A stretch of 64,000 nucleotides of DNA from Plantactinospora soyae. GTDB lineage: Bacteria > Actinomycetota > Actinomycetes > Mycobacteriales > Micromonosporaceae. Below are positions 1,471-7,888 of the stretch, piece after piece; position 1 is the stretch's first letter, and every line of letters begins with the position of its first letter. The position numbers and the translations under genes were made by a program. The notes under the pieces are model-generated. The model searched no databases. It saw only the letters and a list, made by a program, of their open reading frames with translations, and was not told the DNA's origin. Location of the stretch: positions 2,418,001 to 2,482,000 of the forward strand of contig NZ_JADBEB010000001.1 of the NCBI RefSeq assembly GCF_014874095.1, written 5' to 3'.

Positions 1471-2502
1471 CTATCCGCCGATCGGGTCGGCCGGATAGTC
1501 GATGCTGAGGATCCGGTGCCGGCTCAACAGGCCGACCGGCTCGCCGTCCTCCGTCGTCACCCGGGCGTCGTCGGAGTTGGTGGTGAGCAGCACCGCCAGC
1601 GCGTCGTAGAGCGACGAGCCGATCGGCACGGTCGGCAGCCCTGCGGGGACGTTCCCGTCGGGCGGCAGCGGTTGCAGCAGATCCGGTGTGATCGGGGTGA
1701 CCGCGAGCCGCCGGATCGCCCGGTCCGTGCCGACGAACTCCCGGACGAACGCGGAGGCCGGCTCGCCGAGCAGGGTGGCGGGGCTGGCGTACTGCTCCAG
1801 CTTGCCGCCCTGGGAGAGTACGACGATCCGGTCGCCGAGCCGGACCGCCTCGTCGAGGTCGTGGGTGACCAGCACGATCGTCTTGCGTACCTCCGCCTGC
1901 AACCGCAGGAACTCCTCCTGGAGCCGCCCACGGGCGATCGGGTCGACCGCGGAGAACGGCTCGTCCATCAGCAGTACGACCGGATCGGCCGCCAGCGCCC
2001 GGGCCACCCCGACCCGCTGCCGCTGGCCGCCGGAGAGCTCGTGCGGATAGCGCGGGCCGAAGGTGGCCGGGTCGAGACCGACCAGCTCGAGCAGTTCCGC
2101 GGCGCGGGTCTGGATCCGGGCCCGGGACCAGCCGAGCAGCCGAGGCACGGTGCCGACGTTCGCCGAGATGGTCTGGTGGGGGAAGAGGCCGACATTCTGG
2201 ATCACGTAGCCGATCCGCCGCCGGAGCTGGACCGGATCGGTCCGGGTGACGTCCTCGTCGCCGAGCAGGATCCGCCCGGAGGTCGGCTCGATCAGCCGGT
2301 TGATCATGCGAAGTACGGTCGACTTGCCGCAGCCGGACGGGCCGATCAGCACGACCAGCTCGCCGGCCTTGACCTCCAGGCTCAGGTCGCCGACCGCGAC
2401 AGTGCCGTCGGGATACTGCTTGCGTACCTGGTCGAGGGTGATCGCGGCGGCACTCACGGCACCGGCCGGCCCGGCGGAGTCGCGCTCCGGGGTAACGTCC
2501 AC
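1471..2502 (-). CDS. Compatible-solute ABC transporter ATPase (OpuCA/ProV type)
   Basis: This 343-residue protein is the ATPase that would energise glycine betaine/choline/proline-type osmoprotectant uptake. It has Walker A (GPSGCGKST), the ABC signature LSGGQRQR, Walker B (VVLLMDEPFSAVD) and the H-loop VTHD. The roughly 90 residues after the nucleotide-binding domain resemble a CBS region, as in OpuCA. The GTG start at 2502 is supported by GGAAGGA at 2509-2515. The two permease genes and the binding-protein gene lie on the opposite strand, and the first permease start is only 2 nt away. The usual opuC layout instead places the ATPase first in a single operon. The substrate cannot be told from sequence. 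Confidence 0.92.
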   Translation of the reverse strand: MDVTPERDSAGPAGAVSAAAITLDQVRKQYPDGTVAVGDLSLEVKAGELVVLIGPSGCGKSTVLRMINRLIEPTSGRILLGDEDVTRTDPVQLRRRIGYVIQNVGLFPHQTISANVGTVPRLLGWSRARIQTRAAELLELVGLDPATFGPRYPHELSGGQRQRVGVARALAADPVVLLMDEPFSAVDPIARGRLQEEFLRLQAEVRKTIVLVTHDLDEAVRLGDRIVVLSQGGKLEQYASPATLLGEPASAFVREFVGTDRAIRRLAVTPITPDLLQPLPPDGNVPAGLPTVPIGSSLYDALAVLLTTNSDDARVTTEDGEPVGLLSRHRILSIDYPADPIGG

Positions 2503-2504
2503 GT

Positions 2505-3197
2505 ATGTCCTTCCGCGTGATCGACCGGGCTGACCCGGGTAATCCGTGGTTCTCCTGGGATTATGTGCAGAGCAATTCGGAGACGATCCTCGCCGCGCTG
2601 CGGGAGCACACCTGGCTGACCGCCCAGGCCGTGCTGATCGCCGCCCTGGTCGCGATCCCGCTCGCCGTGCTGGCGTACTGGTTCCGGCCCCTCACCGGGC
2701 CGATTCTCGCACTCTCCGGCGCCCTCTACACGATCCCGTCGCTGGCACTGTTCGCCTTCGCGGCTCCGTACCTCGGCACCGGCACCGCGACCGTGCTCCT
2801 CGGTCTGGTCCTCTACGCCCTGCTGCTGATCATCAGGAACTCGCTCGCCGGGCTGAACCAGGTGCCGGCAGAGGTCCGGGACGCGGCCCAGGGGATGGGG
2901 TACGGCAGGTTCGCCCGGCTGATCCGGATCGACCTGCCGCTGGCGCTGCCCGGCATCTTCACCGGCCTGCGCCTGGCCACCGTCTCCACGGTGGCGCTGG
3001 TGACCGTCGGCGTGCTGGTCGGGCACGGCGGCCTCGGTCAGCTCATCCTCGGCGGATTCCGCAACAACTTCTTCAAGGCCGAGATCATGACCGGGACCAT
3101 TCTCTGCGTGGTGCTGGCCCTGATCCTGGACCTGATCCTGGCCGGTCTGGGGCGACTGCTCACCCCGTGGGCCCGACGTCGGGGAGCCGCCGGATGA
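2505..3197 (+). CDS. Compatible-solute ABC transporter permease (OpuCB/ProW type)
   Basis: A 230-residue integral membrane protein with the BPD_transp_1 fold and about six helices. It carries the EAA-type loop (EVRDAAQGMGYGRFARLIRIDLPLALPGI) that docks on the ATPase. The ATG at 2505 begins inside the ribosome-binding site of the divergent ATPase gene, and its own Shine-Dalgarno is poor (CGGGGT, 14 nt upstream). Starts at GTG 2517 or GTG 2562 are possible and would leave the first transmembrane helix intact. It is followed by the second permease with an ATGA overlap, so the two are translationally coupled. Confidence 0.9.
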   Translation: MSFRVIDRADPGNPWFSWDYVQSNSETILAALREHTWLTAQAVLIAALVAIPLAVLAYWFRPLTGPILALSGALYTIPSLALFAFAAPYLGTGTATVLLGLVLYALLLIIRNSLAGLNQVPAEVRDAAQGMGYGRFARLIRIDLPLALPGIFTGLRLATVSTVALVTVGVLVGHGGLGQLILGGFRNNFFKAEIMTGTILCVVLALILDLILAGLGRLLTPWARRRGAAG

Positions 3198-3928
3198 ACC
3201 CGATCGACCAGGCCGTGACCTGGATCAACGATCCGCTGAACTGGACCAACCCCGGCGGCATCCTCGACCGGCTGGTCGAGCACCTCGGCATCTCCGCGGC
3301 GGCGGTCGCGCTCGGCTGCCTGGTCGCCTGGCCGCTCGGGCTCTGGCTCGGGCACAGCGGCCGGGGCGGCGGCGCCGTCGTGCTGGTCTCGAACATCACG
3401 CTGGCCATTCCGACCATCGCCCTGCTGACCATCCTGCCGCTCACCGCGCTCGGTTTCGGCAAGCCTCCGGTGATCATCGCGTTGGCGGTCTTCGCGGTGC
3501 CACCGCTGCTCGCCAACGCGTACACGGGGATCCGGCAGGTCGATCCGGAGGTGCGGGACGCCGCGCGTGGGATGGGGCTCTCCGGCGGGCAGTTGCTGCG
3601 CCGGGTGGAACTGCCGCTCGCGGTGCCGTACCTCGCCGCCGGGTTCCGTACCGCCGCGGTGCAGGTGGTGGCCACCGCCGCGCTCGCCTCGTTCGTGAAC
3701 GGCGGCGGCCTCGGGCAGATCATCAGCGCCGGTTTCGGGTTGGGCATCTCGGTCGGCGGCGGTCAGATCCTGGCCGGCGGGCTGCTCGTCGCGCTGCTCG
3801 CCCTGGTGATCGAGCTGATCTTCGCCGGAGTGGAGCGGATCGTGACCCCCCGTCCGCTGCGCCGGACCCGGCGCCGCGTCGCCCGGCAGGCCGACCAGCG
3901 GGCCGCGGCGGCGATCACCGGCTCCTGA
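3194..3928 (+). CDS. Compatible-solute ABC transporter permease (OpuCD type)
   Basis: The second permease of the same importer has 244 residues. Its ATG overlaps the TGA of the first permease (ATGA), showing operon coupling. After a short cytosolic N-terminus it has about six helices and the EAA loop (EVRDAARGMGLSGGQLLRRVELPLAVPYL). The glycine-rich NGGGLGQIISAGF segment is typical of ProW-like permeases. The last eight codons and the TGA lie inside the first unit of a 34-bp tandem array (3905-4040), so the C-terminal residues may be repeat-derived. Confidence 0.92.
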   Translation: MNPIDQAVTWINDPLNWTNPGGILDRLVEHLGISAAAVALGCLVAWPLGLWLGHSGRGGGAVVLVSNITLAIPTIALLTILPLTALGFGKPPVIIALAVFAVPPLLANAYTGIRQVDPEVRDAARGMGLSGGQLLRRVELPLAVPYLAAGFRTAAVQVVATAALASFVNGGGLGQIISAGFGLGISVGGGQILAGGLLVALLALVIELIFAGVERIVTPRPLRRTRRRVARQADQRAAAAITGS

Positions 3929-4040: not shown

Positions 4041-4238
4041 GAGTCACCCGGAGTAGGCGGGCGTGCGCGCCTCGTACCTTTTTGCGTGACGATACGGTGA
4101 CGAAGGTCGCCTCAGATTGTCCCGCCGGGCGAGAGGATGTTTCGTGGGAGGTCGCGGGCGACCATCACGGTTCGTCGCCCGTCGGACACGCGGCCGGCCC
4201 AGCGGGGTCGCGCCGGGACACAGGAGGCGGGCGTTTTG

Positions 4239-5252
4239 ATGCGCACACGTACACGTCTGGCAATCGGCGCCACCGGCGCCCTCGTCGCGGCCGGTTTTCT
4301 GGCCGGCTGCGGCGGCGCCGGCTCGTCCGGTACCGAGGCTCCGGCGACCGGCGCCCAGGGCGCCGGCTGCGCGCCGGTGGCCGGGTCGAGGCTGGTCGTG
4401 CTCGAGGACGACAAGAAGCTCCAGAACACCGACAACATCATTCCGGCGATCAACAGCAAGGCGGCCCAGCCCCAGTTGGTCGCCGCGCTCGACAAGGTCT
4501 CGGACAGCCTCGACACCACCAAGCTGATCGGCCTGAACAAGGCCGTCGACGTGGACCGGAAGACGCCGAAGGTGGCCGCCGAGGAGTTTGCCTCGGCAAA
4601 CAACCTGACCGCCGGAATTCCCACCGGCGGCACCGGCTCGATCACCGTCGGCGCCGCGAACTTCAGCGAGAACCAGACCCTCGGCGAGCTGTACCGGATC
4701 GCCCTCACCGCGGCCGGCTACCAGGTCAAGGTCCAGCAGATCGGCAACCGTGAGCTGTACGAGCCGGCGCTGGAGAAGGGCGAGATCCAGGTCGTTCCGG
4801 AGTACGCCGCGACGATGGCGGACTTCCTGAACGACAAGGTCAACAAGTCGGGCACCGCGACCCCACCCCCGATCTCCTCCCCCGACCTCAACCAGACGGT
4901 GACCGGGCTGAAGGCCGCTGGCGAGAAGGTGGGCATCAGCTTCGGCAAGCCATCCGCCGCCCAGGACCAGAACGCGTTCGCGGTAACCAAGGAGTTCGCC
5001 GACCAGCACGCCGTGCGTACGCTCAGCGAGCTGGCCGCGAAGTGCTCCGGCACGGCGACCGTGCTCGGCGGCCCGCCGGAGTGCCCGCAGCGGCCCAAGT
5101 GCCAGGCCGGGTTGATCCAGGTCTACAACCTCAACGTGGGTCGGTTCAGCTCGCTCGACGCCGGTGGCCCGCAGACGAAATCGGCCCTGACCTCGGGCGC
5201 GATCAGTGTCGGACTGGTGTTCTCCTCGGACGGCGCGCTCGCCGCGGGCTGA
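4239..5252 (+). CDS. Compatible-solute-binding lipoprotein (OpuAC/ProX family), apparently circularly permuted
   Basis: A 337-residue extracytoplasmic solute receptor. The N-terminus is a lipoprotein signal ending LAGC, with the lipidated Cys at residue 24. The ATG at 4239 follows AGGAGG at 4222-4227; an in-frame TTG at 4236 is an alternative. Domain order is unusual. Residues about 51-123 (from RLVVLEDDKKLQ to AEEFASANNL) match the part that normally ends ProX/OpuAC proteins. Residues about 134-337 (from ITVGAANFSENQTLGELY) match the usual beginning and middle. The protein stops at VFSSDGALAAG, exactly where the VVLEDD segment would normally follow. This is what a circular permutation looks like. 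The upstream permeases and ATPase make a complete importer. Confidence 0.9.
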   Translation: MRTRTRLAIGATGALVAAGFLAGCGGAGSSGTEAPATGAQGAGCAPVAGSRLVVLEDDKKLQNTDNIIPAINSKAAQPQLVAALDKVSDSLDTTKLIGLNKAVDVDRKTPKVAAEEFASANNLTAGIPTGGTGSITVGAANFSENQTLGELYRIALTAAGYQVKVQQIGNRELYEPALEKGEIQVVPEYAATMADFLNDKVNKSGTATPPPISSPDLNQTVTGLKAAGEKVGISFGKPSAAQDQNAFAVTKEFADQHAVRTLSELAAKCSGTATVLGGPPECPQRPKCQAGLIQVYNLNVGRFSSLDAGGPQTKSALTSGAISVGLVFSSDGALAAG

Positions 5253-5407: not shown

Positions 5408-7888
5408 ATGTCAGCTCGCGAGGCCCCCGAGGAGTCACGCCGCAAGCCACTGCTGACCGTGCTCTTCTGGGTCGGCGTCGGATTGGCTCCGCTGGCTGCC
5501 CTGTTACTCCTGCTGGGACAGGGGAACGGGCCGCTGCGGATCGCCGCCGTGCTCGCCGTACTGGCGGTGGTGCTCATCGGACTGTCGATCACACTGCGTG
5601 GCAATTCCGATGGCGCCGGGCTGGATCTGGAGGAGACCCTCCTCGAGGAACTCGACGATCTGCGCGGCGAACTCCGTACCGATATCGCGACGGCGGCTCG
5701 GGCCACGCACAAGGCCTTCGGCGAGAAGCTGGAGGTGGTGCAGGGCAACGTCGAGGCGCTGCGTGGCCAGCTCGATGCCGTACGGGCCAGCGTCGACGCC
5801 CCGCGCGCCGCGGCTGCCGTACCGACGGCGACCGCCGCCGGTTCGGTGGTGGCCGGCGCGGCGGTCGGCGGCGCTGCCGTTGCCGCCGTCACCCCGGCCG
5901 GCGCGGGCCAGCACGAATCCCCTGGACAGACTGGCCGGACGCCGAAGGAGGCGCCCTCGGCCGGCTGGAGTCCGGCTGGCGCGGCACCCGCCGGCCCGGT
6001 CCGGGGTGAGGCCGGGTCACGGTCACGCGACGACGGCTCCCGGGGCGACGGCTCCCGGAGCGACGGATCGCGGAGCGAGCGATCCCGGGGTGAGCGATCC
6101 CGGAGCGAGGGAGCGCGGGGCGAGGGAGCGCGGGGCGACGGACCACGGGGCGACGGACCACGGGGCGACGGATTACGGGGCGACGGATTACGGGGCGACG
6201 GATTACGGGGCGACGGATTACGGGGCGACGGATTACGGGGCGACGGATTACGGGGCGAGGCAGCACGGGGCGACGGGCCACGGCGGGCCGCCGGCCCCGG
6301 GCCGTCCCGGGGGGCCGAGCACGGCGGTCCCGGCCACTACCAGGCAGCGCCCGCTCCGGGCTACGACGACCGGGGCGGCTATCCCGACGACGACCGGGCC
6401 GGCCCTGGCCGGAGCTACGGGCGACCCGACGTCGACCCGGACGGGCCACCCGGGCAGTACGGCCGTCCCGGGGGACAGCCGTGGGGCGCGGGCGGACGTC
6501 CCCAGCACGGTGCGCCGAACATGCCATCCGGGCCGCATCTGGGCGCCGGCGTGGTCCGGCACACCGAGACCGTCCAGGTCACCACCCGCCAGACCATCGT
6601 CGGGGCGCACAGCGACGACCCACGCTCCGGCAGCGGTTACGGCACCGGCGGTTACGGCGGCGCCGGCCAGGGCGGCACCTACGGCGGCGGTAGCTACAGC
6701 GGCGGCGTCTACGGTGGCGGCGGTGGTCGGGACGGCGGCTACGGCGACGGCGGGTACCACGGCGGTGGCCGGGACGGCGACTACGGCGATGCCGGCGGCG
6801 GAGGCGGCACCTACGGCGGTGGCCGGGACGACGACACCGGCCGGGGTGCCGGCACCTACGGCGGCGGTGCCCGGACCGGTGGCACCTACGGCGGCGGCGC
6901 CGGCCCGGACGGCAACACCTACGGCGGCGGCGCCCGGACCGGTGGAACCTACGGCGGTGGCGAGCCGGACGGTGGAACCTACGGCGGCGGCGAGCGGGCC
7001 GGCGGTACGTACGGCGGCGGTGGGGGCGGCGGCGGCACGTACGGCGGCGGCGGTGGGGGCGGCGGCGGCACGTACGGCGGCGGCGGTGGGGGCGGCGGCG
7101 GTACGTACGGCAGCGGTGGCGGGCGGGATCGTGACGATGGCGCCGAGGACCGGAGCGACCGGGGCCGGCGTGCTGCCCGGGGTCGACGGTCGGACGAGCC
7201 CGTCGACGGTCCGGGAGACGACCGTCGGGGCGACGGCGGCGGCTGGCGGGGCCGGTCGGAGGACCCGGATCCGGGGGAGGTGACCGGCGACCCGGCCGAC
7301 GACTCGTACTGGGCCGAGTTGCGGGCCGGTGACCGGTGGACGTCGGTACGCAACGACGAGCGGGGCCAGGAAGTCCGGATGGGCGAGCGGCGGGCGTCGA
7401 TGCGGGCCGACGAGAGCGGTACGGAGCTCCGGGTCGAGGACCGGTGGGCGGCGATCCGCCGGGAGGAGCCGAGGCCGGACGACGACCGCCGGTCCGACCG
7501 GCGCTGGCCGGAGCCTCGCGAGGACGAGCAACGCTGGTCGGAGTCCCGGGACGACGATCGTCGACGGGGTGGTCAGCCGGAGTCGGCGGACTGGGCCGAG
7601 ACCGACGACGTCCGGCGCCCGGAGCGGCGGGGCGGGGGTCGTGGCCTCGATCCGGGGGAGAGCCAGGGCTGGGAGCGGCACAGCGGTACGCCGGCACTGC
7701 CCGTCGGCGGCGTGGACCAGGCAGCGGTGTGGGGTCCTCCCGCCCAGGAACCGGAGCCCGAGCCGGCCCGCCGGAGTCGACGGCAGCGGGAGGACGAGGA
7801 GTACGGCTACCCGCCGTTGGACGAGGTGCCCCGGGCCGGTGGCACCCGGCGGTCCGAGTACGGCTACCCCGAGGACAACTGGCGCTGA
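5408..7888 (+). CDS. Large low-complexity membrane protein with tandem peptide repeats
   Basis: An 826-residue protein of unknown function; the ATG at 5408 (MSAREAPEE) precedes the first hydrophobic stretch. Residues about 15-65 hold two transmembrane helices. Residues 70-125 form a charged coiled-coil-like segment (DLEETLLEELDDLRGELRTD). The rest is disordered: 17 pentapeptide units of R-G-D-G-x type (DNA 6031-6285), a Pro/Gly/Tyr section, then a GGTYGGG-repeat section (about 6640-7113), and finally an Arg/Asp/Glu-rich tail. The topology suggests a small membrane anchor with a long flexible cytoplasmic or wall-facing tail. Its reading frame is preferred over long antisense frames because only this one has a membrane domain with normal actinobacterial codon bias. 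Confidence 0.75.
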   Translation: MSAREAPEESRRKPLLTVLFWVGVGLAPLAALLLLLGQGNGPLRIAAVLAVLAVVLIGLSITLRGNSDGAGLDLEETLLEELDDLRGELRTDIATAARATHKAFGEKLEVVQGNVEALRGQLDAVRASVDAPRAAAAVPTATAAGSVVAGAAVGGAAVAAVTPAGAGQHESPGQTGRTPKEAPSAGWSPAGAAPAGPVRGEAGSRSRDDGSRGDGSRSDGSRSERSRGERSRSEGARGEGARGDGPRGDGPRGDGLRGDGLRGDGLRGDGLRGDGLRGDGLRGEAARGDGPRRAAGPGPSRGAEHGGPGHYQAAPAPGYDDRGGYPDDDRAGPGRSYGRPDVDPDGPPGQYGRPGGQPWGAGGRPQHGAPNMPSGPHLGAGVVRHTETVQVTTRQTIVGAHSDDPRSGSGYGTGGYGGAGQGGTYGGGSYSGGVYGGGGGRDGGYGDGGYHGGGRDGDYGDAGGGGGTYGGGRDDDTGRGAGTYGGGARTGGTYGGGAGPDGNTYGGGARTGGTYGGGEPDGGTYGGGERAGGTYGGGGGGGGTYGGGGGGGGGTYGGGGGGGGGTYGSGGGRDRDDGAEDRSDRGRRAARGRRSDEPVDGPGDDRRGDGGGWRGRSEDPDPGEVTGDPADDSYWAELRAGDRWTSVRNDERGQEVRMGERRASMRADESGTELRVEDRWAAIRREEPRPDDDRRSDRRWPEPREDEQRWSESRDDDRRRGGQPESADWAETDDVRRPERRGGGRGLDPGESQGWERHSGTPALPVGGVDQAAVWGPPAQEPEPEPARRSRRQREDEEYGYPPLDEVPRAGGTRRSEYGYPEDNWR
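6031..6285. repeat. 15-bp coding tandem repeat, 17 units
   Basis: Seventeen in-frame 15-bp units encode an R-G-D-G-x-type pentapeptide. Six consecutive units from 6166 (CGACGGATTACGGGG) are identical, and the flanking ones diverge gradually, as expected from slippage or unequal exchange. The absence of spacers excludes CRISPR. Confidence 0.95.
6640..7113. repeat. Gly/Tyr-rich coding repeat (GGTYGGG type)
   Basis: Repeated GGCACCTACGGCGGCGG-type units encode GGTYGGG with linkers of 3-12 residues. Toward 7010-7110 the linkers become pure polyglycine encoded by GGC/GGT runs. The peptide resembles aromatic-glycine 'sticker-spacer' disordered sequences. Confidence 0.9.

Follow-up and report, generated by a model that had tools for sequence, protein, structure and literature searches.

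The glycine betaine site of the A. fulgidus ProX (AfProX) type is formed by a cage of four tyrosines, together with a lysine, a threonine and an arginine for the carboxylate. ProX itself (1sw1), OpuBC, OpuCC, EgtUC and OsmF share the family PF04069 with the protein described here and have all of its parts, but differ from it in that two blocks of the chain stand in exchanged order. Within the same Pfam family, B. subtilis OpuAC (2b4l) is likewise a natural circular permutant, which however is cut elsewhere, its chain starting at profile position 122 against about 187 in the protein studied here. Permutation relations among the glycine betaine-binding proteins 2b4l, 1r9l and 1sw1 appeared in print in 2008 (PMC2395249, accessible part). 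Outside the family, the lipoprotein Tp0684 (MglB-2) of T. pallidum is a binding protein whose topology is circularly permuted and which has kept its ligand binding; its authors suggested that anchoring to the membrane might have favoured such a topology (PMC4990184, accessible part). Tp0684 belongs to a different family (glucose binding, Type I/Cluster B) and, unlike the protein studied here, has a fourth hinge crossing. Permutation in glycine betaine-binding proteins is thus already known; the cut site described below, the recurrence of such events and the pair of cysteines appear to be new, as neither these nor the spread in Actinomycetes nor a third cut site was found in the literature searched, outside of which most subscription papers lie.

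Exchanged blocks in a ProX/OpuAC-family lipoprotein

The window, that is the whole stretch of 64,000 nucleotides of Plantactinospora soyae that was analysed, encodes at 4239-5252 an exported lipoprotein that adjoins genes for an ATPase and two permeases:

1471..2502, minus strand: ABC transporter ATPase, ProV-like (TIGR01186 304.7 bits, below the cut-off of 326.6)
2505..3197, plus strand: ABC transporter permease 1 (BPD_transp_1)
3194..3928, plus strand: ABC transporter permease 2 (BPD_transp_1)
4222..4227, plus strand: Shine-Dalgarno-like AGGAGG upstream of the ATG at 4239, from the sequence
4239..5252, plus strand: ProX/OpuAC-family substrate-binding lipoprotein, read as circularly permuted; 337 aa plus stop, ATG at 4239
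4239..4310, plus strand: lipoprotein signal peptide by its sequence, ending at Cys24 (LAGC lipobox)
4368..4370, plus strand: Cys44, shortly ahead of the moved block; expected to pair with Cys269 in a disulfide
4389..4607, plus strand: moved block, residues 51-123, equivalent to the family C-terminus (PF04069 about 187-255)
4608..4637, plus strand: linker, residues 124-133, between the former C- and N-termini (sequence, alignment)
4638..5249, plus strand: main block, residues 134-337, equivalent to the family N-terminus through lobe 2 (PF04069 about 2-184)
5043..5045, plus strand: Cys269, the second clade-specific cysteine
5082..5102, plus strand: Cys282 to Cys288 (CPQRPKC), a pair common to the nearest unpermuted relatives

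Cys24, which stands in an LAGC motif that we take to be the lipobox, is invariant across 28 aligned proteins. Membership of the window protein in PF04069 is clear, at 133.4 bits against the curated cut-off of 21.2. When the genome was scanned with this profile of 257 positions, the protein matched in two pieces, the main one (residues 134-335 on profile 2-184; 96.2 bits, E 8.5e-27) and one upstream of it (profile 187-255; 37.7 bits, E 8.8e-9), each of which exceeds the cut-off when scored separately. The domain is therefore complete but in exchanged order, and the claim of the sequence-only reading that nothing is missing holds, since only profile positions 185-186 fall between the two pieces. 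Solved chains give the same picture: 5teu is matched in two reversed pieces (query 126-282 on chain 14-164, and 30-122 on 207-298), and so is A. fulgidus ProX, 1sw1 (134-299 on 7-163, and 51-120 on 200-270). Profile and structures thus agree with that reading in placing the family C-terminus (residues 51-123) just after the signal and the N-terminal block from residue 134, with a Gly/Thr-rich linker at about 124-133. The homologous parts occur once each, rotated and with the old termini joined, as in a natural circular permutant. Chance is excluded by the E-values of the pieces and by the recurrence of the same order in 80 of 80 loci, the best 80 of 122 relatives.

The AlphaFold2 model of the window protein, computed from 28 rows of close sequences (69-98% identity), has a pLDDT of 84.1 and a pTM of 0.80 and is confident from about residue 41. 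Foldseek matched the model only in part, with the best E-value (1.3e-7) for 2b4l at TMq 0.36 in a sequential alignment and with TMq 0.47 over 202 columns for 7s80; such partial matches would be expected for a permutant, yet are no proof of the fold. We infer that the protein folds into an ordinary two-lobed binding protein. Taken together, the gene very probably codes for the lipoprotein that binds the substrate of an OpuC/ProX-type ABC importer, with a chain that is a natural circular permutant. Such proteins call for caution in profile matching: the single best family-profile alignment omits the moved block (here the larger piece alone is the best stretch).

In the surroundings of the gene, two bases separate the called start of permease 1 from that of the divergent ATPase gene (2502-2505), with no room for a promoter; one of these starts may be internal, or the transcripts may be leaderless. 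The next gene downstream (about 5408-7888, plus strand) codes for a protein that has hydrophobic stretches close to the N-terminus and contains long repeats rich in Gly (GDGLRGDGLRG, GGGGGTYGGG). Three more PF04069 matches lie at other places of the genome (G000:C1 7139235, 7404166 and 6152963; L002, L004 and L005), each in one piece.

Distribution and origin of the block-first clade

The closest named genome with this form is that of Plantactinospora alkalitolerans (97% identity in the best segment; records of the query genome itself were possibly excluded). The block-first order was found in all 80 named loci kept, the best 80 of 122 relatives, which by genus name all belong to Micromonosporaceae. 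Full-length block-first matches are present in at least 34 of a set of 61 genomes, in at least 31 of 37 genomes of the window's own family and in 7 of 7 of its own genus, and six genomes of the family have none among the matches listed. Within the order, at least 103 of 298 genomes carry the form, in families f1, f5, f7, f10, f13 and f16, with a piece of it at a contig end in f14; the class sample, with at least 15 of 296 genomes, adds families f23, f43 and f54. All these counts come from matches sorted by E-value and are lower bounds at the weak end. In a phylum-wide sample, 2 of 296 genomes are block-first, both from the window's own family.

Block order in the fetched loci was read with two profiles, one per block, built from 14 permuted proteins. 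In a tree of 99 reordered proteins the block-first proteins lie on one side of a single branch (support 100/96), and they again form one clade (100/98) in a tree of 90 rows, from which 15 more loci (16 rows) were removed; both trees are unrooted. The larger tree keeps 12 of the loci L006-L115 and omits the long branches L123, L128 and L175, the incomplete or differently permuted L205 and L206, the near copies L141, L142, L184, L150, L154, L181 and L172, and the one-block ORFs (L120, L186 and the second ORF of L167). The nearest unpermuted proteins, L156-L159, come from families f52, f35, f21 and f24 of the same class. Once the blocks are reordered, they share 49-52% identity with the window protein, from which they differ in having the ordinary order and no equivalents of Cys44 and Cys269.

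The operon of the block-first clade consists of an ATPase gene on the opposite strand, two permease genes and the binding protein gene, with this exact pattern in 92 loci, so that homologues of the same order do stand beside permeases, with the gene following the two permease genes and the divergent ATPase gene adjoining, as the sequence-only reading had proposed to check. Unpermuted L156, L158, L160 and L162 have the same arrangement as the window, and in L156 and L158 the operon genes are the same; L157 and L159 lie near contig ends. In other, more distant unpermuted relatives the ATPase gene is often on the permease strand (18 loci of this exact pattern), and the divergent arrangement is therefore common to the near unpermuted relatives but not to all. 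Because the block-first clade and its near unpermuted relatives have the operon in common, the simplest reading of these gene orders is that the permutation happened in place. Between close species most of the differences affect the third codon position (in the comparison with L036 there are 44 there, against 7 and 2 at the other two, and with L037 61, against 20 and 11), and judged by this pattern the gene is under constraint.

Such a permutation could arise through tandem duplication of the gene, fusion of the copies and loss of the outer parts, by which a short linker would come to connect the old C-terminus with the old N-terminus. The gene in the window shows no trace of duplication itself, and we infer this mechanism from the general model, from tandem copies in relatives and from the linker of another permutant described below. 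Tandem block-first binding protein genes, the expected intermediate stage, occur in genus g66 (L182, L183, L184 and L247). At L167, a diverged second binding protein gene (2626-3615, minus strand) follows one of ordinary order.

Several other explanations of the exchanged order were weighed. Misjoined parts of neighbouring genes, whether by assembly or by annotation, are a practically negligible possibility: draft errors do exist, as in G068 (74% complete), where the block-first gene L186 is split over two overlapping frames, probably through a sequencing or assembly error, but one open frame with the same order in every one of the 80 best relatives, its presence in genomes that consist of a single contig (G001 and G009, for example) and conservation that runs across the joint rule an artefact out from independent genomes. 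It is exceedingly improbable, too, that a truncated binding protein has acquired an unrelated N-terminal domain. The N-terminal block scores modestly by itself (37.7 bits), but it matches the family C-terminus (E 8.8e-9) starting two profile positions past the other piece, it matches PDB chains at their own C-termini, and the protein is 52% identical to L156 once reordered; the profile alignments thus rule out an added domain. That the block-first order is ancestral and the ordinary ProX proteins are the permutants would be compatible with the unrooted trees, in which change counts alone cannot separate gain from loss, but it is very improbable and was rejected, because the block-first proteins fall into a single inner clade, which was met here in no class but the window's and whose neighbours are ordinary in both trees. 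Solved 5teu, 1sw1 and 1sw2 are ordinary as well, in agreement with the earlier view that ordinary ProX proteins have the opposite order; the two findings that would have spoken against a permutation, a moved block unrelated to the family C-terminus or a block-first order usual in the family, were thus not obtained. Plasmid matches from Streptomyces and Klebsiella, which align with about 80% of the query, split into two pieces, proved to be of ordinary order on inspection (2 of 342 matched records), as did a match in G594 that spans residues 23-335 (L136).

Cysteine pair, pocket and function

Most block-first proteins carry a cysteine shortly before the moved block and a second one in the main block, Cys44 and Cys269 in the window protein. 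The pair was counted among 127 distinct proteins read as block-first, 53 unpermuted and 16 otherwise permuted ones, with proteins of identical moved blocks merged, and was scored where a cysteine lies at most 12 residues before the moved block and another near the position of Cys269. Both cysteines are present in 123 of the 127, in 0 of the 53 and in 0 of the 16, one of the last having a cysteine at the first place only; the sample is rich in relatives of the query and is no measure of frequency across the family. The four exceptions are L179-L181 of family f10 and L206, the latter in fact a permutant of another kind. In family f10, 11 of 24 genomes hold a block-first protein, and the pair is absent from all 11 (these three and eight further proteins, which have two core cysteines each). 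By comparison, 13 more block-first proteins, from other families, each have four cysteines; in the stretch of context shown, the first of the pair is seen in 13 of 13 and the second in 9 of 13.

Since f10, which in the 99-row tree is sister to the remaining block-first proteins, is without the pair, the order of branching suggests that the pair was probably gained only after the permutation. A gain at the base of the clade, with a later loss in f10, is conceivable at the cost of more steps. The other two cysteines of the core, Cys282 and Cys288, are common to the unpermuted sisters L156-L159, which leaves Cys44 and Cys269 for each other, and the two probably form a disulfide. With the pair gained after the permutation, such a bond would fasten the segment at the new N-terminus to lobe 2 and may compensate for the bond cut by the permutation.

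The pocket was mapped through AfProX, with its pocket residues Tyr63, Thr66, Asp109, Arg149, Tyr111, Tyr214 and Lys13, and through EgtUC. For EgtUC, the roles of pocket residues were taken from the accessible part of PMC9732360. Tyr63, Thr66, Asp109 and Arg149 of AfProX are retained as Tyr189, Thr192, Asp243 and Arg285, Tyr111, Tyr214 and Lys13 are replaced by Asn245, Thr64 and Ala140, and Phe328 stands at a cage-tyrosine position. The four-tyrosine cage with lysine, threonine and arginine is thus not found complete in the window protein, and the score for the OsmF equivalog NF049931 is 63.3 bits against a cut-off of 400. Because of the three replacements, binding of glycine betaine appears doubtful from the sequence: the original label "glycine-betaine-type" fits as regards the family, but less surely as regards the ligand, as the cage is only partly kept.

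At six of the eight pocket positions (189, 192, 243, 245, 285 and 328) L156-L159 are identical to the window protein, and they differ at 64 (Ala) and at 140 (Phe, the position being covered in three of the four). Since these unpermuted proteins match except at 64 and 140, the loss of the cage tyrosines and the lysine is, on this alignment, older than the permutation. Among 24 block-first rows some pocket positions vary, 328 most of all (16 Phe, 6 Leu and 2 others). The replaced tyrosines and lysine might be taken as a sign that the permuted protein has given up transport and now serves as a sensor or an enzyme, but the gene still adjoins those of its permeases and ATPase, and the unpermuted L156-L159 are without the same tyrosines and, in the three covering the position, without the lysine; we consider such a change of role very unlikely. 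With six of the eight positions the same in the four nearest unpermuted proteins, the window protein is instead likely to act in import, and family and operon indicate the binding protein of an importer of the osmolyte or quaternary-amine type. It would close on a small, perhaps zwitterionic, solute and pass it to the permeases.

Further permutants in Actinomycetota and the lipid anchor

A second kind of permutant was found at seven loci in Actinomycetes (L133 and L137-L142) and at ten outside the class (L196-L205 of families f60, f101 and f68, L205 being cut by the contig end). Its order, similar to that of OpuAC, is the second half of the main block (from the LVLGGPPE strand), the C-terminal block and the first half. 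L140 starts at profile position 114 against 122 in B. subtilis OpuAC; the window protein, which begins at about 187, does not belong to this type of chains beginning at about 114-122. Matches in G083, G307, G311, G052 and G451 that run through a stop codon were considered as tandem unpermuted genes, and these loci proved to hold the second permutant kind. In a first tree of 97 rows without out-of-class proteins, one change accounted for the OpuAC-like permutants, and three changes were required once out-of-class rows were added in the 99-row tree. Forcing the 12 OpuAC-like rows of the 90-row tree into one clade lowered the log-likelihood by 186.7 (p-AU 6e-63), and because this constraint is rejected, at least two events must be assumed.

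A third cut, between HYGFEIP and the LDTG strand, was found in L206 (G774, the same gene as L216), which had been read as block-first before its cut site was recognised, and in L217 (G875); the two come from two genera of family f67. Some match is present in 35 of 35 genomes of this family, and the ten other loci fetched from it (L218-L227) have the ordinary order and are 68-83% identical to L206 in the main block. Permuted L206 and L217 are 67-72% identical to each other, and their joint branch in the 90-row tree has support 76/97; this permutation is likely to be comparatively young and of single origin, young being meant in a relative sense because of that identity and branch support. The inner linkers of L206 and L217 (GDELSGAEITVGSKDF and GDGSLDGAEFTVGSKDF) resemble the N-terminal linker of the unpermuted L223 (GDASLEGADITVGSKDF), which reads as a trace of an old C-terminus fused to an old N-terminus that had lost its signal peptide. 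By these sequence comparisons, the ProX/OpuAC family was permuted independently at least three more times in Actinomycetota, at two other sites.

In EgtUC, domain D1 comprises residues 232-331 and 445-503 and D2 residues 341-432 (PMC9732360, accessible part). When Arg285 is matched to R379 and Thr64 to Y443, the three cuts fall at about 430, 365 and 395 of EgtUC, all within or at the edge of lobe 2 by the limits in that part of the paper, and with each of them the lipid anchor would therefore have left lobe 1 for lobe 2. In the window protein, the new termini would lie at the crossing from lobe 2 back into lobe 1, and the anchor formerly joined to lobe 1 would now be joined to lobe 2. Such a shift across four events in Actinomycetota is suggestive. 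A bolder proposal, which we hold only tentatively and consider rather unlikely as it stands, is that the Actinomycetota ProX/OpuAC family is a hot spot of permutation, with at least four events at three cut sites and the anchor on lobe 2, selected via altered presentation to the permeases, and with the largest clade seen later stabilised by a disulfide.

Within a single phylum, one importer family thus includes a permutation that is old, widely kept and apparently followed by the gain of a cysteine pair, others that arose independently with different cut sites, and one that is comparatively young and has close unpermuted relatives. Their coexistence makes the route of permutation (duplication, fusion, truncation), the order in which repair steps followed and a possible part played by the tether directly testable, and the independently cut relatives form a natural series for the study of protein rewiring. 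The permuted proteins also provide natural scaffolds in a family that, to judge by the names of PDB matches, has already yielded fluorescent sensors.
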